Below are positions 21,170 through 41,127 of a stretch of 64,000 bases of DNA, piece after piece. The stretch lies in NCBI RefSeq assembly GCF_947501785.1, contig NZ_CANMXB010000001.1:1569048-1633047 (forward strand). Direction: 5' to 3'. How positions within the stretch are numbered: position 1 is the stretch's first letter; every line of letters begins with the position of its first letter. The translations under genes were made by a program, and so were the position numbers. The stretch is from an uncultured Litoreibacter sp. (lineage in GTDB: Bacteria; Pseudomonadota; Alphaproteobacteria; Rhodobacterales; Rhodobacteraceae). The notes beneath the pieces were generated by a model. The model was not told where the DNA came from. It did no database searches and was given only the letters and a program-made list of their open reading frames with translations.

Positions 21170-21196
21170 GTCTGTTCAACTTTCTATCGGGGGATA

Positions 21197-21218: not shown

Positions 21219-21236
21219 CATGATGCGCAGTCAGGA

Positions 21237-22268: not shown

Positions 22269-22409
22269 AGCTTTTCTCCTTCGTTGAAATTGGCGTCCGC
22301 TTTGGTTGCGGCTCTGGTTAAATTGAATTGGAATTACGGCTCCATCTTTTGGCCTCGGTCATTCGAAAAACGTGGCAGTTCCGGTCGGCGGAGTTAGCCC
22401 CCATGGCGG

Positions 22410-25071: not shown

Positions 25072-25124
25072 GCGTCCCCCGTGCCGGTAAACGTCTTGCC
25101 AAATGGCGTATCTGTCAACATATT

Positions 25125-25142
25125 TGTGAAAAATTTATCACA
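25125..25142. promoter_or_regulatory. Palindromic operator in the RpiR/amidohydrolase divergent region
   Basis: TGTGAAAAATTTATCACA is a near-perfect AT-centred inverted repeat with 5-base arms and an AT-only core. It lies in the 115-base divergent gap, 54 bases from one start and 45 from the other. RpiR-family regulators bind such AT-centred palindromes; binding here is inference. Confidence 0.6.
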
Positions 25143-25186
25143 TAATCTGCCGTGTTGTTATTTTTTCGATCAAAAGCGAGGCATCT

Positions 25187-26062
25187 TTGATGAGCGAAGC
25201 CAGTCTGACGATCTCGGATCGCATCCAGAACCAGTTTGACGACCTCACCCGGGCGGAGCGGCAGCTGGCGCATTCCATTCTGGAAAATTACCCCGCCTCC
25301 GGCCTGGGGCCGCTGAGCGCATTGGCCAAAGACGCCAAAGTCTCGGTGCCCACGGTCGCGCGGATGGTGCAGAAACTGGGCTTCAACGGCTACCCCGAAT
25401 TCCAGACCGAGCTGCGCGAAGAGCTGAAAGCCAAGGCCAAAGGCCCGATCGCCAAGCATGACACCTGGGCGGGCGGCGCCCCGTCCGAGCATATCCTGAA
25501 CCGCTTTACCGACGCCGTGATCGACAACATCCGGCATACGCTGGGACAAATCGACCCCGACGATTTCGACGCCGCCTGCGCGATGTGCGCCGACCCCGAC
25601 CGCCATCTCTACATCGTGGGGGGCCGCATCACCCACACGCTGGCGGAGTATCTGTTTCTGCATATGCAGGTCATCCGGCCGCAGATCACCCATATCCAGT
25701 CGACCTCGAACGCGTGGCCGCATTATCTGCTGGACGTCAAGGAGGGCGACGTGTTCATCATTTTCGACATGCGCCGCTACGAGAACAACACCCTGAAGCT
25801 GGCCGAGATGGCCCATGCCAAAGGCGCGAAACTGATCCTGTTCACGGACCAATGGCGATCCCCGGTGCATCAATTGGCCGATATCAGCCTCAGCAGCCGC
25901 ATCGTGGCCCCCTCCGCCTGGGATTCCGCCGCCACGCCGCTGCTGCTGGTGGAGGCGATGATTTCAGCGGTGCAAAACCTGACCTGGGGCGACACCAAAG
26001 ACCGGATGGAGGCGCTGGAGGACATGTTCGACCAGACAAAACTGTTCCGCAAATTCACCTAA
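25187..26062 (+). CDS. MurR/RpiR-family transcriptional regulator
   Basis: 291 residues. The N-terminal HTH_6 domain (about 8-80) has LTRAERQLAHSILENYP and the recognition segment VSVPTVARMVQKLGFNGYPEFQ. The C-terminal SIS domain (about 120-270) has LYIVGGRITHTLAEYLFLHMQ and DVFIIFDMRRYENNTLKLAEMAHAKGAKLILFTD. SIS domains usually bind phosphosugars, but RpiR proteins also regulate other catabolic loci. It is divergent from the TRAP operon and so is likely its regulator. Confidence 0.92.
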   Translation: MMSEASLTISDRIQNQFDDLTRAERQLAHSILENYPASGLGPLSALAKDAKVSVPTVARMVQKLGFNGYPEFQTELREELKAKAKGPIAKHDTWAGGAPSEHILNRFTDAVIDNIRHTLGQIDPDDFDAACAMCADPDRHLYIVGGRITHTLAEYLFLHMQVIRPQITHIQSTSNAWPHYLLDVKEGDVFIIFDMRRYENNTLKLAEMAHAKGAKLILFTDQWRSPVHQLADISLSSRIVAPSAWDSAATPLLLVEAMISAVQNLTWGDTKDRMEALEDMFDQTKLFRKFT

Positions 26063-26086
26063 GGGTGCCCCACCAAGGCGCGACCG

Positions 26087-27070
26087 CTACAGCCGCGCAG
26101 CTTTCCGCGCCTGCAGGGCGGCATGGCTTCGCACCGCTGAATAGCGGTCAATGGCAACCGCCGCCAACAGGACTGAGCCGCGCACCACGTCGTAGATATA
26201 GGGCGACGCGTTCATCAGGTTCAGGCCGTTGTCGATCAGCACCAGAAACACCGCGCCGATCACTGATCCGATCACCGTGCCCGACCCGCCCGTAAGCTTC
26301 GTGCCGCCAAGGATCACCGCCGCAATGACCGTGAACTCTATCCCGATGCCGATGCCCGATTGCAGCCCGCCGACGCGCGCCAGCAAGATCAGCGCCGCAA
26401 TGCCCGTCACCAACCCGCTGAACGCGTAGACCGCAACGGTCACGCGGCCCACCGGCAGGTTGGTTTCCATGGCTGAGCGTTCCGAGTTTCCGATTGCGCG
26501 GGCGTAGACGCCAAGCCGCGTACGGCTCAGCACATAGACGCCCACGATCACCACAACCGCCAGGATCAGAATAGGCACAGGAATGTTCAGAATGCGCCCA
26601 TTGCCCAGGAAACCCATCTCGCGCGGGACGGGGATGTTTTGCGCCCCCGTCAGGTGGATCGCCGCGCCGCGATAAATCGAGTAGGTGGCCAGCGTTGTGA
26701 TCAAGGGCGACACCCGGAACCTTATGATGAGCCACCCGTTCAGCGCGCCAAGCCCCGTCGCGCATAGGATGGTCACGAAGAACGACAGAAAGTAGTTTTC
26801 GGTGTCGAGCATCAGTTGTGCAAACAAGGCCGACGTCAAAAAGAGGATCGCCCCGACCGAAATGTCGATGCCCGCGGTCAAGATGATGAAGGTCATGCCC
26901 ACAGCCATGATGGCGGTGACGCTTGACTGCATGAGGATGGCCTGAAAATTCGACAAGGTCAGAAACACCGGCGAGGCCACCGACAAGACGCCCGCCAGCA
27001 CAATGGTGGCCAACGCAACCGCGACCCATTTTTGGCGCGACATCAGGGATTTCAGGGCATCAAGCGTCAT
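26087..27070 (-). CDS. CUT2 ABC transporter permease (RbsC-like), second copy
   Basis: 327 residues with 8-10 hydrophobic segments. The family core is visible: AVGMTFIILTAGIDISVGAILFL, FRVSPLITTLATYSIYRGAAI, and FTVIAAVILGGTKLTGGSGTVIGSVIGAVFL. The ATG at 27070 overlaps the ATPase gene by 11 bases. It is the last gene of the transporter operon and pairs with the permease at 28556-29497 as a heterodimer. Confidence 0.9.
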   Translation of the reverse strand: MTLDALKSLMSRQKWVAVALATIVLAGVLSVASPVFLTLSNFQAILMQSSVTAIMAVGMTFIILTAGIDISVGAILFLTSALFAQLMLDTENYFLSFFVTILCATGLGALNGWLIIRFRVSPLITTLATYSIYRGAAIHLTGAQNIPVPREMGFLGNGRILNIPVPILILAVVVIVGVYVLSRTRLGVYARAIGNSERSAMETNLPVGRVTVAVYAFSGLVTGIAALILLARVGGLQSGIGIGIEFTVIAAVILGGTKLTGGSGTVIGSVIGAVFLVLIDNGLNLMNASPYIYDVVRGSVLLAAVAIDRYSAVRSHAALQARKAARL

Positions 27071-28559
27071 GGCTGCTTCCTTCGCGCGAACTTGCCGCCA
27101 TCGAGATAATGGCCACGCTGTCGTAGTTCTCGCGCTGCACCTCCCCCACGATCCACCCCTTGCGCATGACAAGCAACCGGTGCGTGATATGCAGCAGCTC
27201 AGGCAAATCCGAGGACACGATCAGGATGGCTTTTCCCGACCGGGCCAGATCGGCAATTGCTTCGTGAATGTCGAACTTGGCGCCGATATCGACGCCCTTT
27301 GTCGGCTCGTCAAAGATCAGGATGTCCGGGTTCATCGACAGCCAGCGGCCCAGCAACACCTTCTGCTGGTTGCCCCCCGATAGGTCACTGACGTGGTTTT
27401 CGATATGCGGGACCGAGATGTTCATGTCCTCGACCATGCCGGCCGCCTTGGCCTTTTCGCCCCGGAAACCGATGCCGCGCATGGCGCGCTTGACGTAATT
27501 TGCAATCGCGGAGGCCGACAGGTTTTCGCGCACGGGGCGGTTGAGGAACAATCCGTTGGTGCGGCGGTCCTCAGTGACATAGCACAGGCCCTGCGCCTTC
27601 ATCCCCGCCACAGTGCGTGGCACAACTTCCCCGTCGATCAGCACGTCGCCCGTTGCCTGCCGCAGGCCAAAAATGGCCTCGGCGATCTCGGTGCGCCCTG
27701 CCCCCATCAGCCCCGCGATGCCCAGAATTTCGCCGCGGTTCACGGTGAAACTGACATCGCGGAAATCCGGCGAGGACAGCCCCCGCACCTCCAGCGCCGG
27801 TGTTTGCGTGGGCGCGGCCAATGCGACCTGCGCGTCCTCGATGGTGCGGCCCACCATCATTTCTTCCAACGCCCGTTGGGTGACATCTTCCAACCTGCCG
27901 TGGCCCACCTGCTGGCCATCGCGCAACACGACGAAGCTGTCGCAGACGCGGTAGATCTCCTCCATGAAATGCGAGATGAAGATGATCGACAGCCCGCGCT
28001 CCTTCAACTTATCGATGATCGCGAACAGCTTTTCGCGTTCGACCGCCGTCAGGGAGGTCGTCGGTTCATCGAGGATCAGCACGTTATCGGCATGCAGCAG
28101 CGCCTTGGCGATTTCCACCACCTGCTGCTTGCCCGCGCCCAGCGTTTCGACCAGGGCCCGCGGGTCGATGTCGATCCCTAGAAAATTGATCTGTTCCTGG
28201 GCAATACGTCCCGCCTGTGACCAGTCCACCCGCGCGGCGGAGCCCGGCAGATCGGAGACGCAGATATTTTCAGCGACGCTGAGCGATCCGAACAAGGACA
28301 GCTCCTGGTGAACCGCAGAAATGCCGTGTTCAGACGCGGTGACTTTCGCCACCTGCTGCCCGGCGATGGTGATCTGGCCGCCGGTCGGTTGCAGCAATCC
28401 GCATAGCATGTTCTTGGTCGTGGACTTCCCAGCGCCGTTTTCGCCCACCAGCGCCAGAACCTCGCCCGGCCTGAGGTCAAAGGCGACGTCGGCGACGACC
28501 GTTTTGTCCCCGAAGGTTTTCGTCAGCCCGCGCACGGACAAGGTCGGCGCGCCGGTCAT
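27060..28559 (-). CDS. CUT2 ABC transporter ATPase (RbsA-like)
   Basis: 499 residues with two nucleotide-binding domains. Domain 1 has Walker A GENGAGKST, a degenerate signature LGAGKQQ and Walker B VLILDEPT. Domain 2 has the degenerate Walker A GLMGAGRTE, signature LSGGNQQK and ILIFDEPTKGVD. This asymmetry is normal for RbsA/MglA. The ATG at 28559 (MTGAPTLSVRGL) overlaps the upstream permease gene by 4 bases. Confidence 0.93.
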   Translation of the reverse strand: MTGAPTLSVRGLTKTFGDKTVVADVAFDLRPGEVLALVGENGAGKSTTKNMLCGLLQPTGGQITIAGQQVAKVTASEHGISAVHQELSLFGSLSVAENICVSDLPGSAARVDWSQAGRIAQEQINFLGIDIDPRALVETLGAGKQQVVEIAKALLHADNVLILDEPTTSLTAVEREKLFAIIDKLKERGLSIIFISHFMEEIYRVCDSFVVLRDGQQVGHGRLEDVTQRALEEMMVGRTIEDAQVALAAPTQTPALEVRGLSSPDFRDVSFTVNRGEILGIAGLMGAGRTEIAEAIFGLRQATGDVLIDGEVVPRTVAGMKAQGLCYVTEDRRTNGLFLNRPVRENLSASAIANYVKRAMRGIGFRGEKAKAAGMVEDMNISVPHIENHVSDLSGGNQQKVLLGRWLSMNPDILIFDEPTKGVDIGAKFDIHEAIADLARSGKAILIVSSDLPELLHITHRLLVMRKGWIVGEVQRENYDSVAIISMAASSREGSSHDA

Positions 28560-29497
28560 TGCTGCCTCCGCGCGCCAAGCTTCATCGCCATCCATGTGCC
28601 CAGAAAGATCAGCACCCCTTGAATGATCAGTTGGTCATAGAACGGGATGCCCAGCAGGTTCAGCCCGTTCGTCAGCATGGCCAGGATCGCGACGCCCAAT
28701 ATGGTGCGCTCCACCGAACCTTCGCCGCCGGTCATGCCGGTGCCGCCCAGCACAACCGCGCCAATGATGATCAGCAGCAACGTGTCCCCCACCCCCGGGA
28801 TCGCGTTGCCCAGATTGGCGATGGAGATAAAGCCCGCAACGCCCCCCAGCGTTCCGGCAAAGAGATAGGCGCTGAATGTCGTGAAGCGCACATTTATGCC
28901 CGAAAACCGCGCCGCCTCGGCGTTGGACCCGACAAGCATGATGTGCCGCCCCCACGTCGTGTGCGCCATGGCCAAGCCGGACACCAGCACCACGGCCAAG
29001 GCGATCACCATAACGGCGGGAATGCCGAGCCAGAGCACGAAGCCGAAATCGAGCATCCAATAGGGCGTTCCCCGCACCGCGATGCCGGAGCTGAACACAA
29101 AGGCCAGCCCCCGCGCGATCAGCCCGGTGGCCATGGTCGTGATAAACGGCGTCATCTGGAAATAGCCGATCAACACCCCATTCAGGACCCCGAACGCAAA
29201 TCCGACGGCGACGGCCGTGACCGCCCCCAGCGCCACGTTTCCCGTCGCGGCCATTGCCAGCCCGGAGACGACCGCGCTGACGCTGATCACCGTCGAGATC
29301 GACAAATCGATGCCGCCTGTCAGAAACACAACCGTCATGCCCACGGCGGCGATCAAAACCACCGCATTGGCGCCGAGCATCGCCTCGACATTCCCTGCGG
29401 TGAGGAAGAAGGGCGACAGCAACGAAAACCCCGTCAACAGCACAGCAATGATTGCAAGTGCCGGGTAGAATTTCAGAAATTTTAGTGCGGATGTCAC
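28556..29497 (-). CDS. CUT2 ABC transporter permease (RbsC-like), first copy
   Basis: 313 residues, GTG start. The core motifs match RbsC: AAVGMTVVFLTGGIDLSISTVISVSA, FQMTPFITTMATGLIARGLAFVF and LLLIIIGAVVLGGTGMTGGEGSVERTILGVAILAML. About eight to ten hydrophobic helices. It follows the binding-protein gene after a 69-base gap that holds a strong hairpin, and precedes the ATPase with a 4-base overlap. Confidence 0.9.
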   Translation of the reverse strand: MTSALKFLKFYPALAIIAVLLTGFSLLSPFFLTAGNVEAMLGANAVVLIAAVGMTVVFLTGGIDLSISTVISVSAVVSGLAMAATGNVALGAVTAVAVGFAFGVLNGVLIGYFQMTPFITTMATGLIARGLAFVFSSGIAVRGTPYWMLDFGFVLWLGIPAVMVIALAVVLVSGLAMAHTTWGRHIMLVGSNAEAARFSGINVRFTTFSAYLFAGTLGGVAGFISIANLGNAIPGVGDTLLLIIIGAVVLGGTGMTGGEGSVERTILGVAILAMLTNGLNLLGIPFYDQLIIQGVLIFLGTWMAMKLGARRQQ

Positions 29498-29521
29498 GCG
29501 CTGGGCCCCGGAATTCTATAT

Positions 29522-29549
29522 GCGATGTGCCACCATAGCGGCACATCGC
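29522..29549 (-). promoter_or_regulatory. Strong hairpin between binding protein and permease genes
   Basis: GCGATGTGCC and GGCACATCGC form a perfect 10-bp stem around an 8-base loop. No T run follows, so it is more like an mRNA-stabilising or attenuating stem, the usual way a binding-protein message outnumbers its permease message. Confidence 0.55.
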
Positions 29550-29566
29550 GGCTTACTTCGGGCCCT

Positions 29567-30520
29567 TTACTTCGGCGCGCCCCAGATTTTGGCAGCGTTC
29601 GCCTCGGTGTTTTCGGCGGTGTAGAGATTGCCACCGACATAGTTCAGCCGCTCAACGGTTTCGCCTGCCAGAATGCTGCTCACCAGATCAACCGCCTTGC
29701 GGCCCGTCGCGTCTGTTCCCATCACCACAAACGCATCCGCGGTGCCAGACATGACCGCGTCATAGCCGTCGCGCGACCCGTTCACACCGGTGATGACCAC
29801 ATGGCCGTCTTCGCCCATTGGCACCAGCTTGCCGGTATCGGCCAGAACGGTTTCAACCGCCGGAATATGGGTATCGGTGGCCGCAAAGACCGCCGCCACG
29901 TCGGGGTTCGCCTGAATGGCGTTCTGGGTACCGGACAAGGCGCGCGCCGAGTCCCAATCGGTCGGAACCTCGATCAGCTTGACGTTTTTGAGCGCGGCAA
30001 TGCCTTCGCGGAAGCCCGCAGAGCGGTCGATCCCATTCTGGTCATTCAATGCGCCGATCAGCTCGACGATCACAATCTCGCCCTCGCGGCCCGCAAGCGC
30101 CTGCGCGGTGTAGTCACCTGCCAAACGGCCATCAATCAGCGAGTCCGGCCCGACAAATGCCTGCACAACCTGGCTGTCTGGCAGGTCGCGATCATAGGCC
30201 ACAACAGGAATACCGGCCCGTTTCGCGGCGATCAGCGCCCGCTCGATCGTGTTTTGGTCCACGGCGCAGACGAGGATCGCGTCCACCCCTTGGGCAATCA
30301 GAGATTGGATCTGCGCGTTTTGCTGCTGGGCGTCGCCGTCCGCGACAACTTCGACAACCGCGTAGCCCTTGTCGGCCGCGCCTGCCTTGATCCCGTTATT
30401 CACCGCAACACGGCTTTCAAACAGCTGATCAACCGACAGCCCGATGGTGATGTCTTGCGCAAACACGGCGTTGGCCATCGACATCGCGGCCGCAGCAATC
30501 GCTCCAAATAGCATCTTCAT
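29567..30520 (-). CDS. CUT2 sugar-type periplasmic binding protein
   Basis: 317 residues, RbsB-like. A Sec signal peptide (MKMLFGAIAAAAMSMANAVFA) precedes QDITIGLSVDQLFESRVAVNNGI. The QQNAQIQSLIAQGVDAILV and IPVVAYDRDLPD segments are family-typical. The start at 30520 is picked for GAGGAGGA seven bases upstream. It heads the transporter operon. Ligand unknown; the locus enzymes suggest a polyol or aldose-like compound. Confidence 0.92.
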   Translation of the reverse strand: MKMLFGAIAAAAMSMANAVFAQDITIGLSVDQLFESRVAVNNGIKAGAADKGYAVVEVVADGDAQQQNAQIQSLIAQGVDAILVCAVDQNTIERALIAAKRAGIPVVAYDRDLPDSQVVQAFVGPDSLIDGRLAGDYTAQALAGREGEIVIVELIGALNDQNGIDRSAGFREGIAALKNVKLIEVPTDWDSARALSGTQNAIQANPDVAAVFAATDTHIPAVETVLADTGKLVPMGEDGHVVITGVNGSRDGYDAVMSGTADAFVVMGTDATGRKAVDLVSSILAGETVERLNYVGGNLYTAENTEANAAKIWGAPK

Positions 30521-30679
30521 TTCTGATTTCCTCCTCAAATTTCCCGACTGAATGCCGGACCGCGAAGCGCAGTCACGAAAGGCGTTCAGTTACTCCACTT
30601 TCATTTAAGCAAGTCGCTTTTATATTTGCAACAACTATAAACCGATCTCGGAGCGCCCCGGAATCGCAAGGGCCATGTC

Positions 30680-32113
30680 CTAGAATTTTTGATAAACCGT
30701 GCGCTTTTGCAGGTATCCTTCGATCCCGTGCATACCGTCCTCGCCACCCACACCGCTCAGCTTGTGGCCGTTGTGATAGCCTTGAATATAGCCAACAATT
30801 CCCGAGTTCAGAAAAATCGTGCCCGTTTCAAGGCGCTGAATTGCGTCCATGTAGATTGACGGGTTTTGGGTCCACAAATAGGCAGACAGCCCATCCGGCC
30901 TGGCATTTGCGACAGACAGCGCCTCTTCGTAATCGGCGACCCGCACGATGGGCAGCACGGGGCCGAAAATCTCTTCCTGAACAGCCGCCGAGGCGGGCGT
31001 CGCGCCGACCAAAACCGTAGGCTCATACCAATTCCCGGACTGAAACGCAGGCTCATTGGGCCGTTTGCCGCCAAGCGCAATTTTGGCGCCCTGCGCCACG
31101 GTGTCCGCGACGATCCTTTCCACGCGCTCAAGCGCCTCCGGCGTGGTTATTGGGCCCATCCCGCCATTTGACGTGGGGTCGCAGAGTTTGACCTTGGCCG
31201 CACGCTTCAGCAGTTTTTCGGTGAATTCGTCGGCGATGCTGTCCTCGACCAGCACGGTTTCATTGCAGATGCAGACCTGCCCGGCATTGGCAAATCGCGC
31301 GACAACTGCGGCCTCGACGGCGGCATCGATATCGGCGTCCTTGAGAACGATGAACGGCGCACTGCCGCCGAGCTCCAGCGACAGGGCGGTGATGTTTTTC
31401 GACGAGGCTTCGGCCACCATCTGACCCGCGCGGATTGAGCCGGTCAGCGTGATCATGCGCACGATGGGGCTGGTGGTCAGCGGCGCGCCGACATCCACGC
31501 CGGTGCCCGTAACCATGTTGATCACGCCGGGCGGGACCCCTGCCTCTTGCACGATGCGGCAAAAGACTGACGCGGTGACCGGCGTCGCCTCATGCGGCTT
31601 GATGATCATTGTGTTGCCGGTGACTAGCGCCGGTCCGACTTTGCGCCCGATTAGCGCCAACGGATAATTGTATGCGCAAAGCGCAAGCGTGACGCCATAG
31701 GGCACTTTGTAGATGAACAGCTGCTCGCGCGGGTTGTCGGAGGGCAATATGTCGCCGCGCAACCGCCTTGCGGCCTCGGCCGAATAAGTGAGGTACCGGA
31801 TTGTGTCTGTGACCTCACCCGCGGCCTCGGTGCGGGTCTTGCCCTGTTCTTGTACCAGCAATTCCTCAAACAGCTCGCGCTCGTTTTCGACGCCTTTGGC
31901 GATTGCGTAGATGTGCTGCGCGCGTTCAACCGGGGGCAGCAATTGCCAGCGGCGCTGCGCCTTTTGCGAGCTGTCCAGCGCGCGCGCCACGTCATCTGGC
32001 GTGCATGAAGGCACCTCGGCCCATTGCTTGCCGGTTGAGGGGTTGAACACAGGCATGCGGGCACCGTTAGACGCGCCGATCCATTCATTATCGATCATGC
32101 ATTTATAGAACAT
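30680..32113 (-). CDS. Aldehyde dehydrogenase (AldA-like)
   Basis: 477 residues. Nucleophile Cys lies in [11 protein letters not shown], the base Glu in [11 protein letters not shown], and the cofactor segment is CAYNYPLAL. The C-terminal stretch [28 protein letters not shown] resembles E. coli AldA (lactaldehyde/glycolaldehyde dehydrogenase), an inference from recall. It follows the zinc alcohol dehydrogenase by four bases, so alcohol to aldehyde to acid is a plausible pair. Confidence 0.9.
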
Positions 32114-32117
32114 TCGT

Positions 32118-33146
32118 CTAGCTCCCCTGCCCCAATAGAATGATTTTCCCGAAGGCCCCGCCCGAGGCCATGAGTTGCAAAGCCTGATCTATTTGCCCCA
32201 GCGGGAAGGCCTGCGCCGTCAGGGCGTCAAAATCGACCGCACCGGATTCGATCAGCTGAACCGCCTCTTCAAATTCGCGGTTGAATTGGAAGGAGCCGAC
32301 AAGTTCGATCTCCTTGAGCATGATCAGGTGCAGCGCCACTTCGGCGGAGCGCAATTGAATGTTGCTGAGGATAGAAATGCGGCCCTTTTGCCGAACCGCC
32401 TTCAGGGCCGTGTTGAAGGCGGCAATTGCGCCGCTGGCCTCGATCACGACATCAAATCGTTTCTCGATCTCGGCGTCCTTGAACGTGCCAGGGACAAGCC
32501 CGGTCGACGCGCCTGCCCGTTTTGCGACCTCGACAGCCGGGGCGCGCAGATCAAGTGCCGTGACATCGGCGCCCCGTGCGACCGCACCGGCAACCGCCAA
32601 AAGCCCCATCGGGCCGCAGCCCGTCACCAGTACCTTTTGACCCGCCTGCACCTCGCCCTTGTTGAGCGCGTGTAGTGCGCAGGCCATCGGCTCCGCGAAT
32701 GTCAGGTGACGCGGGCTGACGCTACCGGCCACCGGGCGGCAACACCGTGCGGGGTGATCAATGACGTCGCGAAAGAAACCGTCCAGATGCGGCACCGTGG
32801 TCGCCGACCCCGGGAATTTCTTTGCCGTGCACAGGTTCATCTCGCCGCGTTTGCACGGGTCGCAGATCTGGCAATTCATGATGGGGTTCAGCGCCACCAA
32901 CTGACCAGTCTCAAGCCCGGACCCATTGGCGTCCACCACGTATCCGCAGGCCTCGTGCCCCAGCGTGACCGGGTTTTGCAGAACGAACCCGGCGTTGGAG
33001 AATTGCGAATAGTAATGCAGATCGGTGCCGCACAGGCTGGCCGCTGCAAGCTGCACCCGCACATGGCCCACCGGCAAGACGTTGCTGGCCTGCGTGGCGG
33101 TCGTCACCTCGCGGGCCGCGACCAATTTCGTTTCAATCATCGACAT
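32118..33146 (-). CDS. Zinc-dependent alcohol dehydrogenase (idonate dehydrogenase-like)
   Basis: 342 residues, medium-chain family. Catalytic-zinc residues lie in [10 protein letters not shown] and LGHEACGY; the structural zinc uses [15 protein letters not shown]. The Rossmann loop is [14 protein letters not shown]. The CGTDLHYY motif is seen in L-idonate 5-dehydrogenase and related polyol dehydrogenases, so a polyol or hydroxy acid is a likely substrate class. Part of the minus-strand catabolic operon. Confidence 0.9.
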
Positions 33147-33158
33147 GTCATTCGCCCC

Positions 33159-33875
33159 TCAAAAACCAATGGCGTAGCCGCCGTCGACGGGCAGATTGAC
33201 CCCGTTGACATATCCGGCCTGATCGGACGCCAAATAATAGATGGTGTTGGCCACATCCTCGGGGGTGCCGAAACGGTGGCTCGGAATGCGCCCCTCTATC
33301 TTGTCCCGGCGCGCCGGATCTTTGGCGAGCACGGCTCTGGTCATGTCCGTGTCGATGAAGCCGGGGCTGACCGCATTGCAGCGGATGCCAAACAGCGCCG
33401 CGTCCACCGCGACGGAGCGGGTCAGCCCAACCACGGCCGTTTTCGCGGTGACATAAGCAGCCGCCGATGGCAGCGCCATGATGCCGCCCATCGACGCCAC
33501 GTTGACGATCGCCCCGCCTGTCGTGCGATGCAGCTTCACATACCGCCCACAGGCCGCAAACATCGCGCGCACATTGATATCGAGCACCATGTCCAGCTCG
33601 TCAGCGCTGACGTCCCACACCGGCTTTTTCAGATGCACGCCAGCATTGTTGATCAACGCGTCGATCGGGCCCGCGGTCTGATAAATGTCGTCCAGCCAAG
33701 TCGCGTCGCGGTCTTGGGCGATGTCGTATTCATGAAAGACGCAGTGCGCGCCAAGCGCATCTGTGCCGCCTTGGCTGCGCGCCACGACATGCACGTCGAA
33801 CCCCGCCCCTAGAAAGCGTTTGGTCTGGCTGAGGCCGAGGCCCTTGTTTCCACCTGTGATGACGGCGACGGGCAT
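33159..33875 (-). CDS. SDR-family oxidoreductase
   Basis: 238 residues. TGGNKGLG cofactor loop, INNAG, and the catalytic Ser/Tyr/Lys in VASMGGI...AAAYVTAK. GGGAGGT precedes the ATG. It begins three bases after the preceding gene and is followed by the zinc alcohol dehydrogenase, so one operon contains two alcohol-oxidising enzymes of different folds. Confidence 0.9.
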   Translation of the reverse strand: MPVAVITGGNKGLGLSQTKRFLGAGFDVHVVARSQGGTDALGAHCVFHEYDIAQDRDATWLDDIYQTAGPIDALINNAGVHLKKPVWDVSADELDMVLDINVRAMFAACGRYVKLHRTTGGAIVNVASMGGIMALPSAAAYVTAKTAVVGLTRSVAVDAALFGIRCNAVSPGFIDTDMTRAVLAKDPARRDKIEGRIPSHRFGTPEDVANTIYYLASDQAGYVNGVNLPVDGGYAIGF

Positions 33876-33878
33876 GGG

Positions 33879-34991
33879 TCAGTACCTCCCTGCGTGATGG
33901 CGATAAAGCGTGTTAATGGTGGCGAGAAAGGTCTCAGACGCGACGCCGGTGGTGAAGAAACCGGGCATAATCTCGCAAGCGGCGTCGACGAAACCCAGAA
34001 ACCAAGGCGCGCGGGGCCTGGTCCATGCCGCGTCAATGGTGCGCAGGCCGCCTTTGAAAAATCCCGCAACATCCGCGTCTTCCTGATGGTCGAGCCACGT
34101 GTGCCGGTTGGCGGGCTGGCCGTTGTTGGACAGGTAAACGCCCGACTGCACCTCGCGCGATGTGATCCAGCGCGCAAACCGGGTGGCGGTGTCCGGATGC
34201 GTCGTTTTGGCAGAGACCCCAATCCCCGCGCCCCCCAGGATCGCACGTGGCAGGGACTGCCCGGCGCAGAGCGGCAAATCAAAATAGGCGACCCGGTTTC
34301 GGCGAAACCCCGGCCTTGCGTAGTTCACGTAGCCAAACAGGCAGGGCGCGCAGGAGAACTCGTCCGTCTCGCAAAGCGTGTCCAACACGGCTATGGGGTT
34401 CATCTTGATCTGGTCGCCCGGCCCGAGGCGATAGAGCGCGCGCAGGACCTGCAGCGCGTATATCCCATTGTCGTCACTGACGAACCTGTCAGCATCCACC
34501 GGCATGTCGGCGCCGCCCCGACCGGCAACCAGCGTCATGAACATATCAAACGCATCAACCGGCAAGAGCGGGGTCAGCGGCCGGTACTGCGCGGCCTCTT
34601 CGCTCAAAAAGTCTTCCCACCTCTTTGGCAGCGGCGGGGCCAGATCAGGCCGATAGGCCGCCATCTGGCAGGCCGCATCCAAGGCGTAGGCCCAGCACTG
34701 CCCGTTCCAATTGTAGCTTTCGGCGGACCCACCTAAGGAAGCATCCGGATCATCTGGGGGCTCAAGCGGCAACAACGCCCCCGACTCGGCGATTTGTCCG
34801 ACATGCGGGTGATCCAGCACGATAAGGTCGTAGGTTTCGGCCAAGCCCAGAATCGGCGCGTCCGCAAAGGCCTGAAGCGACCGCTTGTCCCACTCAATGC
34901 GCACACCGGTCTGCAGCGCGAACCGCTCAGACGCCGCCAGAACGGGATCGTAGCCACGCGGGTGGTCCCAGGTCATTCCTTTGAGTGTCAT
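33879..34991 (-). CDS. Solute-binding-protein homologue without signal peptide
   Basis: 370 residues from MTLKGMTWDHPRGYDP. The body looks like a family 1 extracellular solute-binding protein: YDLIVLDHPHVGQIAESGALLPLEP, NWNGQCWAYALDAACQMAAYRPD, and AKTTHPDTATRFARWITSREVQSGVYLSNNGQPANR. No signal peptide or lipobox is present from this start, nor from the earlier frame start at 35039. No cognate ABC1 permease genes are adjacent. A cytoplasmic ligand-binding role is therefore possible. It is the first gene of the minus-strand arm. Confidence 0.8.
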   Translation of the reverse strand: MTLKGMTWDHPRGYDPVLAASERFALQTGVRIEWDKRSLQAFADAPILGLAETYDLIVLDHPHVGQIAESGALLPLEPPDDPDASLGGSAESYNWNGQCWAYALDAACQMAAYRPDLAPPLPKRWEDFLSEEAAQYRPLTPLLPVDAFDMFMTLVAGRGGADMPVDADRFVSDDNGIYALQVLRALYRLGPGDQIKMNPIAVLDTLCETDEFSCAPCLFGYVNYARPGFRRNRVAYFDLPLCAGQSLPRAILGGAGIGVSAKTTHPDTATRFARWITSREVQSGVYLSNNGQPANRHTWLDHQEDADVAGFFKGGLRTIDAAWTRPRAPWFLGFVDAACEIMPGFFTTGVASETFLATINTLYRHHAGRY

Positions 34992-35040
34992 CGTTGCCGC
35001 CTTGCAAATCCTGCCATCGATTATGGCGCGGCGCGGCAAT

Positions 35041-35080
35041 CACTTGCAAGTGTCAAAATGATTTTGATATTTGCAAGTGA
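35041..35080. promoter_or_regulatory. Operator cluster in the divergent control region
   Basis: CACTTGCAAGTG (35041-35052) is a perfect palindrome. Directly after it TCAAAA and TTTTGA flank TGA (35053-35067). The half TTTGCAAGTGA repeats at 35070-35080. It lies between the divergent minus-strand operon and the hydratase/IclR operon and is a natural binding region for the IclR protein encoded nearby. Confidence 0.6.
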
Positions 35081-35167
35081 CGTGGTATTACGATGAGCGG
35101 AAAATGTGGTCACTAACATTTGCGGACTTCCCCGCGACGACAGACATCCGGGCGACCCGAGGAGCAT

Positions 35168-35938
35168 ATGGCGGACAAAACGGACGGCGACGTGCGGCTA
35201 GACGTCGACAATCACATCGGCGAAATCATCCTTGACCGCCCCTCAAAACACAATGCGTTGACGCCGGACATGTACCGCAAGATTGCGACCTGCTGCGCCG
35301 ACGCCAATGAAACATCCGCCGTCCATGTGGTGATCATCCGCGGCGCCGGTGAACGCGCGTTTTGCGCCGGCTCCGACATCAAGGCGCTGGAGGGGTACGA
35401 AGACTTCTGGGCCTGGCGCAACAGGTTCGACTACATCCCGCCAATCCTAGGCCTGCGCAAACCGTCCATCGCCGCGATCAAAGGCTGGGCGCTTGGCGGC
35501 GGGCTTGAAATCGCGCTTGCCTGCGACATGAGGGTGGTGGCGCGGTCTGCGGTGTTTTCGGCCCCAGAGGTTCGGCTGGGATGGAACGGAGCCGGCGGGG
35601 CGGCCCAGCACCTGACCCAAATGTGCGGCTACGGGCAGGCCATGAAGCTGCTGCTGACAGGCGACCGGTTCAGCGCCGAGGAGGCGGACGCAATGGGCAT
35701 GGTGGAATGGCTTGTTCAGGACGAGCCTGAGGCGGAGCTTGCCAAGGCGCGCGAGATAGCCGCGCAAATCGCCGAATATTCCAGCGTTGCGACTCAATCG
35801 GTGAAGGCCGCCGTGCGTGGCGCGATGGATTTATCCACCGAACAGGGGCTGCGGCATGAGAATGATCTGATGTCACTTTGCTTTGCCAAGGCCGAACACG
35901 CTAAGCTGCGCGCTGAGAAAAACGGAGAACACTCATGA
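35168..35938 (+). CDS. Enoyl-CoA hydratase/isomerase-family protein
   Basis: 256 residues, crotonase fold. The oxyanion-hole segments are AFCAGSDIKALEGYEDF and the IKGWALGGGLEIALACDMRV region. APEVRLGWNGAGGAAQHLTQMCG covers the position of the second catalytic site and does not show the usual paired glutamates. The ATG at 35168 has GAGGAG before it at short spacing. It overlaps the IclR gene by 4 bases. Hydration, dehydration or CoA hydrolysis are all possible. Confidence 0.88.
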   Translation: MADKTDGDVRLDVDNHIGEIILDRPSKHNALTPDMYRKIATCCADANETSAVHVVIIRGAGERAFCAGSDIKALEGYEDFWAWRNRFDYIPPILGLRKPSIAAIKGWALGGGLEIALACDMRVVARSAVFSAPEVRLGWNGAGGAAQHLTQMCGYGQAMKLLLTGDRFSAEEADAMGMVEWLVQDEPEAELAKAREIAAQIAEYSSVATQSVKAAVRGAMDLSTEQGLRHENDLMSLCFAKAEHAKLRAEKNGEHS

Positions 35939-36744
35939 CGCGACAGGGCAAAAGCATTTCCGCCACGGACAGGAAGTCCAAAGTGGCGGTTCCCGCCGTT
36001 GAAAAGGCGCTGGACGTCCTGGAGCTGCTGGCCAGATCCCCGGACGGTTTGACGATGAACGAAATCGTTGACGCGCTGGGGCGGACGATGGGCGAGCTGT
36101 ACCGCGTTGTCGTTTACCTGGCGGAGCGCGGCTTTTTGCAGCAAAGCAGCGACACCAGCCGCTACGCGCTGACCCTCAAACTGTTTGAGCTGGCCCATAC
36201 CCACGACCCGACCGAACGGCTGATCGCCGCCGGGGTCCCCTTGCTGGAACGCATCGCGGCGGCGACGCGGCAATCTTGTCATCTGGGCGTTCTCAACCGC
36301 ACCAATGTGCTTGTGCTGGCATCCGTGCCAAGCCCCCTGCCCGCCGGGTATTCCGTGCGCACGGGCGCGTTGTTTCCGGTCGATCAGACCAGTTCTGGCC
36401 ATGTCATCCTGGCGTTTTCAACGGCAGACATCCAAGAGCGGTATATCGGGCGGCTGCCCAAGAAGGAGCAATCCGCCGTGAAGGCCCGTCTTGAGCGCAT
36501 CCGCCTGAACGGGTTTGAGGACACGCCCAGCACCATGATCCACGGCGTTCGAAACCTCTGCGTCCCGGTCTTTGACACGCGCGGCGTCGCCGCGGCGATC
36601 ACGTCCGGCTTTATCGAGCAACGCGACGCCAATACCGATGCCGACGCCGCGCTCGCAACAATCCGGATGACGGCGCTGGAGCTGTCGCAGTCATTGGGCT
36701 TCTTGCTGGAGACCAGCCCGTTTGAGACCCCGCTCACCCAATAA
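35935..36744 (+). CDS. IclR-family transcriptional regulator
   Basis: 269 residues. An N-terminal winged helix (about 20-85) has VEKALDVLELLARSPDGLTMNEIVDALG. The C-terminal effector domain has ATRQSCHLGVLNRTNVLVLASVPSP, TSSGHVILAFS and IHGVRNLCVPVFD. IclR proteins bind aromatic or small carboxylic acids. The gene lies inside the operon it is likely to regulate, next to the divergent operator cluster. Confidence 0.92.
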   Translation: MTRQGKSISATDRKSKVAVPAVEKALDVLELLARSPDGLTMNEIVDALGRTMGELYRVVVYLAERGFLQQSSDTSRYALTLKLFELAHTHDPTERLIAAGVPLLERIAAATRQSCHLGVLNRTNVLVLASVPSPLPAGYSVRTGALFPVDQTSSGHVILAFSTADIQERYIGRLPKKEQSAVKARLERIRLNGFEDTPSTMIHGVRNLCVPVFDTRGVAAAITSGFIEQRDANTDADAALATIRMTALELSQSLGFLLETSPFETPLTQ

Positions 36745-36753
36745 GGACCCCCT

Positions 36754-37914
36754 GTGAAGATGACCCAGACCGCCGTTGAGTTGCCCTTGCAAGGGCTGCG
36801 CGTATTGGACTTCGCTCAATTCCTTGCTGGACCGGTGGCTGCGCTGAGGCTTTGCGATCTGGGCGCTGAGGTTATCAAAATCGAACGACCGCAAGGCGGC
36901 GACCTGTGCCGGTCCATGGTCGTCAACGATCAGAGGCTGGACGAGGACAGCCTTGTTTTTCATACATTCAACCGCGGCAAGAAGAGCGTCACCGCGGATC
37001 TGAAGGACCCCGGCGACCTTGCCGCCGTCAAACGCCTGATCAAAACCGCCGACGTGATGATCCACAACTTTCGCCCCGGTGTTATGGACCGTGTCGGGCT
37101 CGGATATGAGACGGTGCGTAGCCTCAACCCGCGTATCGTCTATGGCGCAGTGTCAGGCTACGGCACCGTGGGCCCCTGGAGCAACAAACCGGGGCAAGAT
37201 TTGCTGGCCCAATCCCTGTCAGGCATTGCCTGGCTGAACGGCAACGCGCAGGACGGGCCGGTGCCGACGGGCTATGCGATGCTTGACGTGGCGACCGCAG
37301 GCAACCTGGTGCAGGGCATACTGGCCTGTCTGGTCCGCCGCGGGATCACCAACGAGGGCGGTCTGGTCGAGGTGGACCTGCTATCTGCCGCGCTCGACAT
37401 GACATTTGAGCAATTCACCTGCTTTCTGAACGACCATCTGACCCAACCAAAGCGCCACGCGCTGGGCAACGCCAACCCTTACCAACCGGCCCCTTACGGC
37501 GTGTACAAAACGGCGGACGGCTATCTGGCCTTCGCGATGACCCCGCTTGAAAAAGTTGCGGATCTGTTGGGCTCGCCCGAGGTCGCAACCTTTTCGCAAG
37601 ACCAGTCCTTTTCCCACCTCAACGAGATCAAGGCGATTATCGCCGACGTGTTTTTGACCCAACCCACCCAGCATTGGCTTGACCTGTTGGAGCCCGCCGG
37701 CGTCTGGTGCGCGCCGGTGCTGAATTGGCCGGACTTTGTCAAAACGGACGGCTTCAAGGCACTTGACGCGGTTCAGACCATTCGGTCGACCTCTGGTGCA
37801 GAGGCGCGCACCACGACCAGCCCGATCCGGATTGACGGCAAGCAGCTGAGATCAGAGCAAGGCGCGCCGAGGCTTGGCGCAGATACCGCGGACATATTTG
37901 CAGAAAGGGTCTAG
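36754..37914 (+). CDS. Class III CoA transferase (CaiB/BaiF), first copy
   Basis: 386 residues. LRVLDFAQFLAGPVAALRLCDLGAEVIKIERPQGGDLCR is the N-terminal CoA-binding motif. NFRPGVMDRVGLGYE and PGQDLLAQSLSGIAWLNG follow, the latter holding the Asp that carries the acyl/CoA intermediate. GTG at 36754 or ATG at 36760 may start it. The next gene is a paralogue, so a heterodimer as in BbsEF-type transferases is possible. Confidence 0.9.
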   Translation: MKMTQTAVELPLQGLRVLDFAQFLAGPVAALRLCDLGAEVIKIERPQGGDLCRSMVVNDQRLDEDSLVFHTFNRGKKSVTADLKDPGDLAAVKRLIKTADVMIHNFRPGVMDRVGLGYETVRSLNPRIVYGAVSGYGTVGPWSNKPGQDLLAQSLSGIAWLNGNAQDGPVPTGYAMLDVATAGNLVQGILACLVRRGITNEGGLVEVDLLSAALDMTFEQFTCFLNDHLTQPKRHALGNANPYQPAPYGVYKTADGYLAFAMTPLEKVADLLGSPEVATFSQDQSFSHLNEIKAIIADVFLTQPTQHWLDLLEPAGVWCAPVLNWPDFVKTDGFKALDAVQTIRSTSGAEARTTTSPIRIDGKQLRSEQGAPRLGADTADIFAERV

Positions 37915-37917
37915 CGC

Positions 37918-39069
37918 ATGGAGTTGCCTCTGGACGGCGTTCTTGTCGTCGATTTCAGCCAGTTCCTTGCCGGCCCATACGCATCATTGCGGCTGCTGGA
38001 CATGGGCGCGCGGGTTATCAAGGTTGAAAACCCGGATGGCGGCGACCTGTGCCGGAGCCATTACCTGAGCGAAACCGAGGTTGACGGCGATTCCACCCTT
38101 TTTCACGCGATAAACCGCGGCAAACAAAGCATCGCGCTGAACCTGAAAACCGCTGAAGGCCTTGAAAGCGCGCGGAAATTGATGGCGCAGGCCGACATCG
38201 TAATCCAGAACTTTCGGCCCGGCGTCATGGACAGGTTGGGTGTGGGATATGCCACTGCGGCGGCCATAAAACCCGACATTATCTACGGCTCAATTTCAGG
38301 CTACGGAGCCGCTGACGCCTGGGCCGACGCGCCAGGTCAGGACCTTCTGGCCCAAGCGCGATCCGGCATCATGTGGCTCAGCGGAAACTCCGATGACGGC
38401 CCCGTCCCGCTCGGCCTTCCGATTGCCGACATTGCCGCAGGGGCCGCACTGGCACAGGGGCTGTTGGGCGCACTTTTCCGGCACGCAAGGACCGGGCGCG
38501 GCGCGCATGTCGAAACCAGCTTGCTTGAGGCCCTGATCGACCTGCAATTCGAGTTCCTGACGACCTATCGCAATAACGGGTTGGTCCCCCCGGAGCGGCT
38601 GCAGCGCGGATCGGCGCATGGCTACCTTGCCGCGCCATATGGCGTATACCCGACGTCAGACGGTTTTCTGGCCATTGCCATGACCCCGCTCCCCGCTTTG
38701 GCCAAAGCGCTTGGTGACGCGGACCTCTTTGCTGATCTTCGGGAGCCGCATGCGGCGTTCCAGTCCCGCGACGAAGTATACCGCCGCATTGAACGTCACC
38801 TTCGCACGCGACCAGCGCGCGACTGGGAAGCCGACTTGTCCGCAAAGCAGGTCTGGTGCGCCGAGGTGGTCGGGTGGGACGAGCTTACCGCGATGGGGGC
38901 GTTTGACCGTCTGGGCATTCATTCCGTCATCGGCCACGCGTCGTCATCCAAGCTTGAAACGATGCGAAGCCCCATTCGGTTGGACGGCCAAAGACCGTCG
39001 GCCACGGTAGGCGCGCCGCTGCTGAACGCCCATGCCACAGAAATACGTAAGGAATTCGATCTGCACTAG
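37918..39069 (+). CDS. Class III CoA transferase (CaiB/BaiF), second copy
   Basis: 383 residues and clearly related to the preceding protein. Shared motifs are DFSQFLAGPYASLRLLDMGARVIKVENP, NFRPGVMDRLGVGY and PGQDLLAQARSGIMWLSG with the same catalytic-type Asp. C-terminal WCAEVVGWDELTAMGAF also matches. Both copies keep the active-site residue, so neither looks like a non-catalytic subunit by that test. Confidence 0.9.
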   Translation: MELPLDGVLVVDFSQFLAGPYASLRLLDMGARVIKVENPDGGDLCRSHYLSETEVDGDSTLFHAINRGKQSIALNLKTAEGLESARKLMAQADIVIQNFRPGVMDRLGVGYATAAAIKPDIIYGSISGYGAADAWADAPGQDLLAQARSGIMWLSGNSDDGPVPLGLPIADIAAGAALAQGLLGALFRHARTGRGAHVETSLLEALIDLQFEFLTTYRNNGLVPPERLQRGSAHGYLAAPYGVYPTSDGFLAIAMTPLPALAKALGDADLFADLREPHAAFQSRDEVYRRIERHLRTRPARDWEADLSAKQVWCAEVVGWDELTAMGAFDRLGIHSVIGHASSSKLETMRSPIRLDGQRPSATVGAPLLNAHATEIRKEFDLH

Positions 39070-39088
39070 GTCGCGATGCGCCGGGGCT

Positions 39089-39122
39089 GACCCCCTGCCC
39101 CATTCCAGTGGGGCAAGGGGTC
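39089..39122. terminator. Hairpin between convergent genes
   Basis: Arms GACCCCCTGCCCCA and TGGGGCAAGGGGTC pair with one mismatch around TTCCAG. It sits in the 63-base gap between convergent genes and can act in both directions. There is no clear T run. Confidence 0.6.
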
Positions 39123-39132
39123 GTTCGTAACA

Positions 39133-39972
39133 TCAGGTTGCGGCCTGGATTTGTGCAACCGCCTCTTCGGTGCTCCAGACGGCATTCGCCATGTAGCGGA
39201 AATTGATCAAGGCGGCGAGGTAGCCGTCCCCTTCCGGCAGCATTGCAGCAGCGGTTGCGTCGCGCACAACGGCAACCTCGAACCCGTCTTCAAGCAGTTC
39301 GCGCATGTGGCTTTCGGTGCAAAGATTGGCCGACATACCCGCCAGAATGACCTGATCCACCCCTTGCTTGCGCAGCTGCAGCGACAGGTCGTTCGTGTCA
39401 TTGCCGTAGACCTTGTGCGGCGACGTCACGATGGTTTTTCCGTCCTCGATATATTGCTTGTACTGAGGCATCCAATCAGCGCCGGACCCTTCAAACCCGT
39501 CGAGGTTCAAAGCGCCTTTGCGGTCAAACATGCCGATCTTGTGCATCAGCTTTTCCAGCGCGCCTTCGAATTTCCAGCCGTGATCCGTCGGGTAGTAGTA
39601 ATGCGGCGAGACGGCGGTGGTGATGTCAGCAGCCTTCGCTGCTTTGAACAGCGTTTCGATGTTTTCGACGGTGTTATGCTCGGTCACGCTGGCGCCGATG
39701 ACGCCCCAGGTCACGCCCTCGGGGTGCAGAAAATCAACCTGCGGGTCGGTCACCACCAACGCGGCGCGGGACAGGTCCAGCTTCATGTTGGATGGCGGCA
39801 ACGCGGGTTCGGCGGGGTCAGCATAGGGGCTGGCCGCCTGCGCCTGCGCCGATTGGCTACCGGCAACAACAGCTGCAGCGGCGGCGGAGGCCGCGATGCC
39901 GCCCCGCAGCGCCGCGCGGCGGGTCAACTCGGGGCCTTTGTGGTTGTGGTCTGGATTGTCGCAATTACACAT
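39133..39972 (-). CDS. Exported isochorismatase-family cysteine hydrolase
   Basis: 279 residues. The twin-arginine signal (TRRAALRGGIAASAAAAAVVAG) is preceded by a Cys/His-rich MCNCDNPDHNHKGP. The mature domain has DLSRAALVVTDPQVDF (Asp of the triad), and the SANLCTESHMRELL segment with the nucleophile Cys after ILAGM. AAGGA sits eight bases before the ATG at 39972. Divergent from the AraC regulator, which may control it. Substrate unknown. Confidence 0.87.
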   Translation of the reverse strand: MCNCDNPDHNHKGPELTRRAALRGGIAASAAAAAVVAGSQSAQAQAASPYADPAEPALPPSNMKLDLSRAALVVTDPQVDFLHPEGVTWGVIGASVTEHNTVENIETLFKAAKAADITTAVSPHYYYPTDHGWKFEGALEKLMHKIGMFDRKGALNLDGFEGSGADWMPQYKQYIEDGKTIVTSPHKVYGNDTNDLSLQLRKQGVDQVILAGMSANLCTESHMRELLEDGFEVAVVRDATAAAMLPEGDGYLAALINFRYMANAVWSTEEAVAQIQAAT

Positions 39973-40100
39973 TTCTTGGATCCTTTTCTTTGCGGTATGC
40001 GAAATATGCCTAGAACCTCGCATGTGCCTTTCCGTCCGATACTTGTGCCCAATCTATTTCAAAGGTGCCTTTCCGTCTAAAATCGCGTTACGCAGAAGCC

Positions 40101-41006: not shown

Positions 41007-41127
41007 CCAAGCCCCTGCGTCACTTTGCGCCCCCCAATGGGGCTGACTGCGACAGTTAGGAACCTGTCGCGCCCCAAATGCCACCCTATGTGTTAGACAA
41101 AGAAAACTCGGATGAAGGCATTTTCCC

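Follow-up and report, generated by a model that had tools for sequence, protein, structure and literature searches.

The DNA considered here is a stretch of 64,000 nucleotides from an uncultured Litoreibacter sp., below called the window, and its positions 26087-39069 hold 12 genes in two divergent arms, eight on the minus strand and four on the plus strand. We propose, with a probability of about 0.45, that these genes form a single regulon, that its substrate is an aldose of agar type (L-galacto-configured) which ordinary sugar-acid dehydratases cannot handle, and that this sugar is imported, oxidized, turned into an aldonate thioester of coenzyme A (CoA), subjected to an elimination and brought to 2-keto-3-deoxygluconate (KDG). 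A member of the set is a protein with the fold of a solute-binding protein (SBP) and no leader, called cSBP below for cytosolic SBP-fold protein; we regard an enzyme, or a partner that presents the substrate to a CoA-transferase, as its likeliest role, and an MBP-type binding protein as its likely ancestor. The proposal builds on computed features, namely gene content and its conservation, the missing leader, a repeated operator, kept catalytic residues and co-occurrence with agar genes.

The minus-strand genes encode, in order of transcription, cSBP, a short-chain dehydrogenase/reductase (SDR), a zinc alcohol dehydrogenase (ADH), an aldehyde dehydrogenase (ALDH) and the binding protein, permease, ATPase and second permease of a CUT2-type ATP-binding cassette (ABC) transporter. 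The plus-strand genes encode a protein of the enoyl-CoA hydratase (ECH) or crotonase fold, an IclR-family regulator and two class III CoA-transferases (CoAT1 and CoAT2). Families were assigned with Pfam and NCBIfam at the following window coordinates.

26087-27172, minus strand: CUT2 ABC permease 2 (PF02653, E 3.5e-36); the real start is probably slightly 3' of the TTG.
27060-28595, minus strand: CUT2 ABC ATPase with two nucleotide-binding halves (PF00005, E 7.3e-53, two stretches).
28556-29497, minus strand: CUT2 ABC permease 1 (PF02653, E 4.3e-31).
29567-30538, minus strand: CUT2 periplasmic binding protein (PF13407, E 1e-46); among solved structures, ribose-binding proteins are closest (E 2.8e-28).
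30595-30635, no strand: second, weaker operator copy before the CUT2 genes (13.8 bits).
30680-32113, minus strand: AldA/lactaldehyde-dehydrogenase-like ALDH (PF00171, E 7e-147; NF007497, 467 bits against a cut-off of 500), proposed as candidate aldose dehydrogenase.
32118-33146, minus strand: zinc ADH, L-idonate-5-dehydrogenase-like (PF08240/PF00107; L-idonate 5-dehydrogenase 6dkh, E 2.1e-47), proposed as candidate 2-keto-3-deoxyaldonate 5-dehydrogenase.
33159-33875, minus strand: SDR oxidoreductase (PF13561, E 3e-51), proposed as candidate diketo-acid reductase.
33879-34991, minus strand: cSBP, MBP-type solute-binding fold, no signal peptide, 370 amino acids.
35040-35080, no strand: palindromic operator between the divergent genes, with arms 35040-35059 and 35061-35080.
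35168-35938, plus strand: ECH, crotonase-fold hydratase (PF00378, E 2.1e-44); the ATG is preceded by AGGAG.
35935-36744, plus strand: IclR-family regulator (PF01614/PF09339).
36754-37914, plus strand: CoAT1, class III CoA-transferase (PF02515, E 4.4e-98).
37918-39069, plus strand: CoAT2, class III CoA-transferase (PF02515, E 6.3e-92), 45% identical to CoAT1.

The transporter set is complete, with a Peripla_BP_4 binding protein, a double ATPase and BPD_transp_2 permeases. Neither a lactonase nor a mutarotase nor an aldonate dehydratase is found among the 12 genes with Pfam and NCBIfam, no Rfam family matches in 24000-41500, and a search of PDB sequences with the window ECH at 1e-38 gave no match. 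The first-pass annotation of this DNA had recognized the CUT2 transporter, the SDR, the zinc ADH, the AldA-like ALDH, the IclR regulator, the ECH-fold protein and the two CoA-transferases, and had placed them in two arms diverging from a repeat-rich control region. All these families are present, and their strands bear out the two arms; the annotated number of 13 genes must be lowered to 12, and the ECH gene precedes the IclR gene, which had been listed ahead of it. The gene at 33879-34991, of SBP_bac_8/MBP type and lacking a signal peptide, was missing from that list and proved to be the most useful bait for the system. Nor did the earlier reading include a cytosolic SBP-fold protein, the connection to agar and porphyran or the exchange of hydratases described below.

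The repeats of the control region amount to a near-perfect palindrome of 41 bp at 35040-35080, with arms of 20 nucleotides that are 90% complementary. A match to it occurs in 21/21 of the relatives scanned, all of window type (L005, whose operator was found by a matrix, is not among them; L and G numbers denote loci and genomes), and each match scores higher than any of 100 shuffles of its own stretch. The site lies 90-146 bases 5' of the WDH codon of cSBP, and 108-122 bases in 16/21 relatives. With up to three mismatches, the pattern has a single place in the 3.89-Mb genome to which the window belongs. When a matrix is built from the sites of the 21 relatives, the window excluded, it finds two sites in the 64 kb, at 35040-35080 with 54.7 bits and at 30595-30635 with 13.8 bits, while no other place in the window exceeds -7.5 and 20 shuffled windows reach at most -4.5. 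A copy stands before the window-type CUT2 genes in five of six loci, the window included, and the sixth (L032) ends there; a second site is found beside an orthologous CUT2 binding-protein gene in L013, L015, L019 and L045, and elsewhere in L006 and L032. From the divergent operator and its weaker copy ahead of the CUT2 genes follows that both arms and the transporter probably form one regulon, and the IclR protein of the locus is the probable reader of the operator. The operator common to both arms also supports the earlier idea of one functional unit. Part of its conservation may be inherited, as the relatives share descent.

Relatives were collected by scanning a genome collection with a cSBP alignment, which found 308, and the best 80, corresponding to 79 distinct loci and leaning toward close relatives, were used. 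Counts refer to the 78 loci with a called cSBP (no cSBP was called in L080). Gene clusters were labelled by Pfam and NCBIfam on representatives or by similarity to window genes, and the labels TRAP, TTT (Tct), MalF/MalG, LacI, GntR, LldD and UxaA-N were assigned by eye. The loci come from Alphaproteobacteria (Rhodobacterales, Rhizobiales and Sphingomonas), Gammaproteobacteria, Bacteroidota, Phycisphaerae, Bryobacteraceae and metagenome-assembled genomes of Spirochaetales and Desulfovibrio. A class III CoA-transferase lies at most 12 kb from cSBP in 72/78 loci, where four such genes in the window's own genome give a chance rate of about 2.5%, and a hydratase-fold gene accompanies cSBP in 72/78. 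Of the loci lacking a CoA-transferase (L023, L026, L040, L046, L056 and L073), all except L026 and L073 are contigs under 8.1 kb; those lacking a hydratase are L023, L026, L040, L046, L070 and L072. The genes cSBP-CoAT-CoAT-ECH-ALDH form one contiguous run in nine Bacteroidota loci and in that of Agaribacterium, ten in all. Transporters vary by lineage (CUT1, CUT2, TRAP, TTT, RhaT-family or MFS) while cSBP and the CoA-transferase stay. As for the question whether the two arms come apart in relatives, the CoA-transferase and hydratase genes keep company with cSBP, but the window-type CUT2 genes are mostly elsewhere: a window-type CUT2 binding protein occurs within 10-kb flanks in 5/79 loci and another CUT2 binding protein in 14/79, two of these 14 having both kinds. 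Eleven loci have a GH2 gene, and five a gene for a RhaT-family symporter. On a Sinorhizobium meliloti plasmid (L115, 10838-13125) a CoA transferase adjoins a cSBP annotated 'carbohydrate ABC transporter substrate-binding protein'; an amidohydrolase/IclR pair lies about 10 kb away, and we take the region to be that of the L-fucose genes.

Class III CoA-transferases use a catalytic aspartate, and its column is D in 111/111 such proteins, including two other transferases from the window's own genome. CoAT1 falls in a clade of 61 members (support 0.90, with weaker deeper nodes) that also holds both of the tandem Bacteroidota transferases, and CoAT2 in a clade of 18 members from cSBP loci (support 0.998); the transferase of L044 lies outside the main clade, together with an unrelated transferase of the window's own genome. 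The named class III identities (carnitine, formyl-CoA/oxalate, mesaconate and glutarate) were rejected, since CoAT1 and CoAT2 score below the NCBIfam cut-offs.

By our own clustering, 51 loci have a crotonase-type hydratase and 21 a MaoC-type one, and in no locus are both present. Hydratases of the crotonase fold employ two glutamates, and both columns are kept in 52/52 sequences, the window included. The crotonase loci have an ALDH in 31/51 cases and a Gfo/Idh protein, RhaM mutarotase or AmH2 lactonase in 0/51, while the MaoC loci have an ALDH in 0/21 and a Gfo/Idh, RhaM or AmH2 gene in 17/21. Because the two hydratase types mostly pair with different oxidation modules, it seems that two such modules lead into a single CoA step. 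The loci are related by descent, but both types occur in Proteobacteria and Bacteroidota alike. The MaoC loci lean toward L-fucose-like sugars: their AmH2 is fuconolactonase-like, with a score under its cut-off, a locus on a Roseibium plasmid has a mutarotase, an L-fuconate dehydratase and an FAH hydrolase, and the locus L155 adjoins pectin genes.

The cSBP has the SBP_bac_8/MBP-type periplasmic-binding-protein fold (model pLDDT 93), and its nearest fold in the PDB is SmoF, at 16% identity. An in-frame stop stands 16 codons 5' of its ATG, and in 120/120 of the homologues listed there is no leader, the proteins starting by eye either at the first strand of the fold or with a non-leader extension. 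In a hydropathy control, cSBPs and periplasmic SBPs differ only as overlapping distributions (leader scores without L005, L024 and L032). An alignment of 80 sequences, from which L005, L024, L032, L046, L064 and L072 are excluded, has 32 near-invariant residues, with W8, R12, R37, Q40, D60, D105, Q292 and R325 among them. No fixed permease/ATPase partner of cSBP is conserved: ABC clusters of differing types occur in 24/51 crotonase-type and 15/21 MaoC-type loci, and in 0/14 of the Bacteroidota loci checked, within the stretch fetched. A second leaderless protein, of SBP_bac_1 type, stands beside a CoA-transferase in five loci of Flavobacteria and one of Bryobacteraceae (leaderless in 6/6 N-termini; the family label comes from a Pfam run on one of the six). 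It adjoins the second CoA-transferase in L149 (5470-6702), L153, L155, L158 and L054 (13956-15179) and follows the single one in L150, a pattern as if every transferase had its own SBP-fold partner. There are at least 120 close cSBP homologues, and 2725 of 8000 scored candidates match at E <= 0.001, ordinary SBPs included. If our view of cSBP is true, a large family annotated 'extracellular solute-binding protein' consists of intracellular proteins that belong to a metabolic route.

Consider now how the parts may work together. The CUT2 transporter would import the aldose, the AldA-like dehydrogenase would oxidize its aldehyde to the aldonate, and a class III CoA-transferase would convert the aldonate to aldonyl-CoA. 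The thioester would make the C2 proton more acidic, so that the crotonase-fold hydratase could expel the C3 oxygen in an alpha,beta-elimination, which would also open a 3,6-anhydro ring where the substrate has one. The second CoA-transferase would release the 2-keto-3-deoxy acid, and the ADH/SDR pair would, by oxidation and reduction at C5, yield 2-keto-3-deoxygluconate. In this scheme cSBP is not part of transport and would be an enzyme or a partner of the CoA-transferase, while IclR, acting on two copies of the 41-bp palindrome, would couple both arms and the transporter. The order of the steps, the substrate class, the role of cSBP and the assignment of IclR to the operator are what we infer from the features above. 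The earlier outline of import, oxidation to an acid, CoA transfer and dehydration or cleavage fits well with the kept glutamates (52/52) and aspartate (111/111). It had named a polyol or hydroxy compound as the solute; import stands, and an aldose is likelier, because the ALDH of the window shares 45% identity with the one beside the sugar-acid cycloisomerase in L065 and because relatives carry mutarotase, lactonase and sugar-acid genes. If the scheme is true, it is an undescribed route for sugar breakdown in a marine bacterium, linked to CoA and probably serving a seaweed-type sugar, and it means that bacteria activate sugar acids with CoA and so break bonds which ordinary dehydratases cannot.

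The substrate class is suggested by the surroundings of cSBP. Several Bacteroidota loci sit among genes for red-algal galactans: beta-porphyranase domains are found in L066 and in the Sphingomonas locus L044, a protein with an agarase CBM in L077, a P450 in L076 and a KDPG aldolase with a PfkB kinase in L082. A protein of L158 is 73% identical to the L076 P450, NCBIfam giving no match, and L071 has an S-(hydroxymethyl)glutathione dehydrogenase and an S-formylglutathione hydrolase, both above curated cut-offs, about 2 kb upstream of cSBP with two minus-strand open reading frames in between. A KDG-kinase-like PfkB gene stands beside cSBP-SDR-ADH in five loci. Enolase-superfamily genes lie within 20 kb of cSBP in L065 and L157, and the one from L065 matches PDB 5xd7/5xd8, structures of the 3,6-anhydro-alpha-L-galactonate cycloisomerase (ACI), with E 1.2e-182. 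A relative of ACI, at 48-100% identity, is present in 14/14 genomes searched, 13 with cSBP loci and the window's own; in L032 the ACI orthologue (74% identical to the window genome's own ACI) is inside the cSBP locus, and in G157 it is about 17 kb away. Among 149 genomes from the family that includes Zobellia uliginosa, 11 have cSBP, 13 have ACI and seven have both, where 0.96 is expected (Fisher p 1.7e-6; 6 of 148 and p 1.3e-5 without the centre genome), in tests that ignore shared descent. That the CoA trio is a plain substitute for ACI was rejected, for ACI would then be missing and is found in 14/14 of the genomes searched. A separate observation concerns L153, in which a PdxA-family gene and genes of SBD_N/NBD_C (four-carbon-acid kinase) type at 7276-9461 directly precede the cSBP-CoAT-CoAT operon; a four-carbon-acid reading rests on this single locus.

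Several results count against the proposal. The window's own genome has a separate and apparently complete locus for 3,6-anhydro-L-galactose (AHG) at C1:2444567-2455662, with ADH, ACI (C1:2445634-2446701), CUT2, ALDH, LacI-type and GMC genes, from which follows that plain AHG does not need the set studied here; the operator matrix finds nothing good on that locus (best -4.8). In the window's own genus ACI occurs in 19/21 genomes and a cSBP better than 1e-60 in only 4/21, so that the co-occurrence in Alphaproteobacteria is weak, and in the family of Zobellia 4/11 cSBP genomes lack ACI at 1e-80, one of them having its cSBP beside pectin genes (L155, adjoining GH28, pectinesterase and GH88-family genes). 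The split into two oxidation modules is unclean, as 20/51 crotonase loci have no ALDH. Twelve of these 20 (L020-L022, L025, L027, L030, L033, L034, L036, L038, L039 and L047) carry a metallo-beta-lactamase-fold gene and mostly also a 3HCDH-family gene. They combine cSBP-SDR-ADH with ECH and a non-orthologous CoA-transferase (11 such transferases form a separate clade, support 0.999), some lie near sulfatase, FGE or Tct-like transporter genes, and they possibly serve a third substrate. A Flavobacteria crotonase locus fetched later, L152, has a PF10282 beta-propeller lactonase and a UxuA-family gene and no ALDH. Finally, CoAT1 and CoAT2 fall below every curated NCBIfam equivalog cut-off (at best 196.7 bits against 700; 76.4 and 85.7 against 413 for the carnitine transferase model, 175.9 and 173.2 against 442 for the formyl-CoA model). 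As an aside, the GMC protein of the AHG locus is 64% identical to one in the cSBP locus L043.

In a doubtful but serious alternative, the same pathway logic serves an ordinary L-galacto sugar or acid (L-galactose, L-galactonate or plain AHG) and the CoA steps run parallel to the known cycloisomerase or dehydratase. It would account for the neighbours of agar/porphyran and L-fucose type and for ACI inside L032, and L-galactose is a component of porphyran (PMC5613140 and PMC8360166, both in excerpt). Against this, known enzymes carry out those reactions with no CoA involved, the ACI route is already present in the window's own genome, and the Gfo/RhaM/AmH2 module that we would expect for free L-galactose is found in none of the 51 crotonase loci.

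Unlikely as it stands is a more specific proposal, that the system is a CoA-dependent route for O-methylated sugars, spread over several phyla, with cSBP as a new enzyme (for instance an enol-ether hydrolase or an aldonyl-CoA processing enzyme) that acts with CoA-transferase and ECH or MaoC on 2-O-methyl aldonates. The argument is that expending CoA suits an acid substituted at the C2 oxygen, because the reaction of enolase-type enzymes requires that a free 2-keto group be formed. A 2-O-methyl group would block the cycloisomerases and dehydratases that form 2-keto acids, the thioester would supply the acidity, and methanol would be released. The substrate would be 2-O-methyl-3,6-anhydro-L-galactose for the window and the agar degraders, and a 2-O-methyl-6-deoxyhexose such as 2-O-methyl-fucose for the MaoC-type soil and pectin relatives. 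According to the parts of PMC4483632 and PMC7511586 drawn on here, one Gracilaria agar is reported to have 2-O-methyl-3,6-anhydrogalactose as its major sugar, and some Curdiea species to have G-LA2M as a major repeat. If this proposal is true, the set is a concrete candidate for the way in which the methylated sugars of agar, known to be a component of red-algal biomass, re-enter the carbon cycle.

It is rather improbable that the CoA thioester is cleaved instead of dehydrated, with the crotonase-fold protein as a lyase that yields an aldehyde and the AldA-like ALDH as the last step. The model would be hydroxycinnamoyl-CoA hydratase-lyase; AldA-like enzymes oxidize short aldehydes, and ALDH adjoins ECH in the ten contiguous operons. 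Yet ECH can be replaced by MaoC-type genes, whose family consists of hydratases and dehydratases, and there the ALDH is never found (0/21), and both hydratase glutamates are invariant (52/52).

The idea that cSBP is a normal transport binding protein or the remnant of one, in a standard sugar-uptake cluster that acquired CoA genes by accident, has very little to recommend it, and a role in transport was rejected for lack of a leader and of a fixed transporter. The 120 leaderless homologues, the 32 near-invariant residues, the 14/14 Bacteroidota loci with no ABC cluster, the exchange of transporters while cSBP-CoAT stays and the second leaderless SBP_bac_1 protein beside the CoA-transferase in six loci all speak against it. 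Hardly credible at all is a chance adjacency of two separate catabolic arms, which would explain why CUT2 is often elsewhere or replaced (window-type 5/79, other type 14/79) but meets the divergent operator in 21/21 relatives, its copy before the CUT2 genes and the ten loci in which the genes are one contiguous run.

To the left of the locus, a minus-strand cluster (17276-25071) of an Fe-ADH, an aldehyde dehydrogenase, a glutamine-synthetase-like ligase, DctP and DctM (TRAP binding protein and permease) and an N-formylglutamate amidohydrolase-family protein looks like a separate amine pathway of gamma-glutamylation type. To its right, an isochorismatase-family hydrolase (39133-40023, minus strand), which scores far under the cut-off of the biuret-hydrolase model, diverges from an AraC-type regulator (40065-41006, plus strand).

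We finally compare the locus with known systems. As the first-pass annotation had said, no described pathway with exactly this set turned up, nor was a description of the pairing of cSBP with a CoA-transferase found, in the open-licence literature; what the sequences suggest is a sugar-catabolic regulon of known enzyme families with, in addition, cSBP, for whose use there no counterpart was found. In the known AHG route, an AHG dehydrogenase is followed by a cycloisomerase that gives 2-keto-3-deoxy-L-galactonate (L-KDGal), two 5-dehydrogenases, one for L-KDGal and one for DDGal, and a KDG kinase (PMC5943477, in part), and the first two steps are likewise given in an excerpt of PMC11219438. Shared with it are a first oxidation of ALDH type, the pair of ADH and SDR, the agar gene neighbourhood, the KDG-kinase-like gene of some relatives and the ACI in the same genome; unlike it, the locus has no cycloisomerase and has two CoA-transferases, a hydratase and cSBP instead. 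By this comparison the L-idonate-5-dehydrogenase-like ADH and the SDR of the window are candidates for an L-KDGal 5-dehydrogenase and a DDGal reductase.

In the carrageenan D-AHG cluster of Zobellia (dauA-dauB), the enzyme that proved to be the D-AHG dehydrogenase had originally been labelled a lactaldehyde dehydrogenase, and a DMT-type symporter gene is nearby, as far as the part of PMC5698469 drawn on goes. Several Bacteroidota relatives similarly combine an ALDH with a RhaT-family symporter, whereas the Zobellia cluster has no CoA step and a cycloisomerase of the enolase superfamily. The non-phosphorylative L-fucose and L-rhamnose pathways resemble the MaoC-type relatives, with RhaM, AmH2 and Gfo/Idh and sometimes FAH and L-fuconate dehydratase; the window differs in having none of those genes, and the CoA trio is added to, or replaces, the dehydratase.

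In the pathways of carnitine (CaiB/CaiD), itaconate and mesaconate, CoA transfer is followed by a crotonase or MaoC hydratase, as in our scheme. The likeness stops at the transferases, which reach no curated model, and we know of no sugar oxidation genes or cSBP in those systems. Thiaminase I and MqnA/D are enzymes that evolved from solute-binding proteins. Another binding-protein fold used in metabolism is cyclohexadienyl dehydratase (PMC7683729, in excerpt). With these cSBP shares a binding-protein fold in metabolism, and it differs in being of MBP/SmoF type, leaderless and tied to CoA-transferases; it would be a further example of a binding protein that has become an enzyme inside the cell, or such an enzyme's partner.

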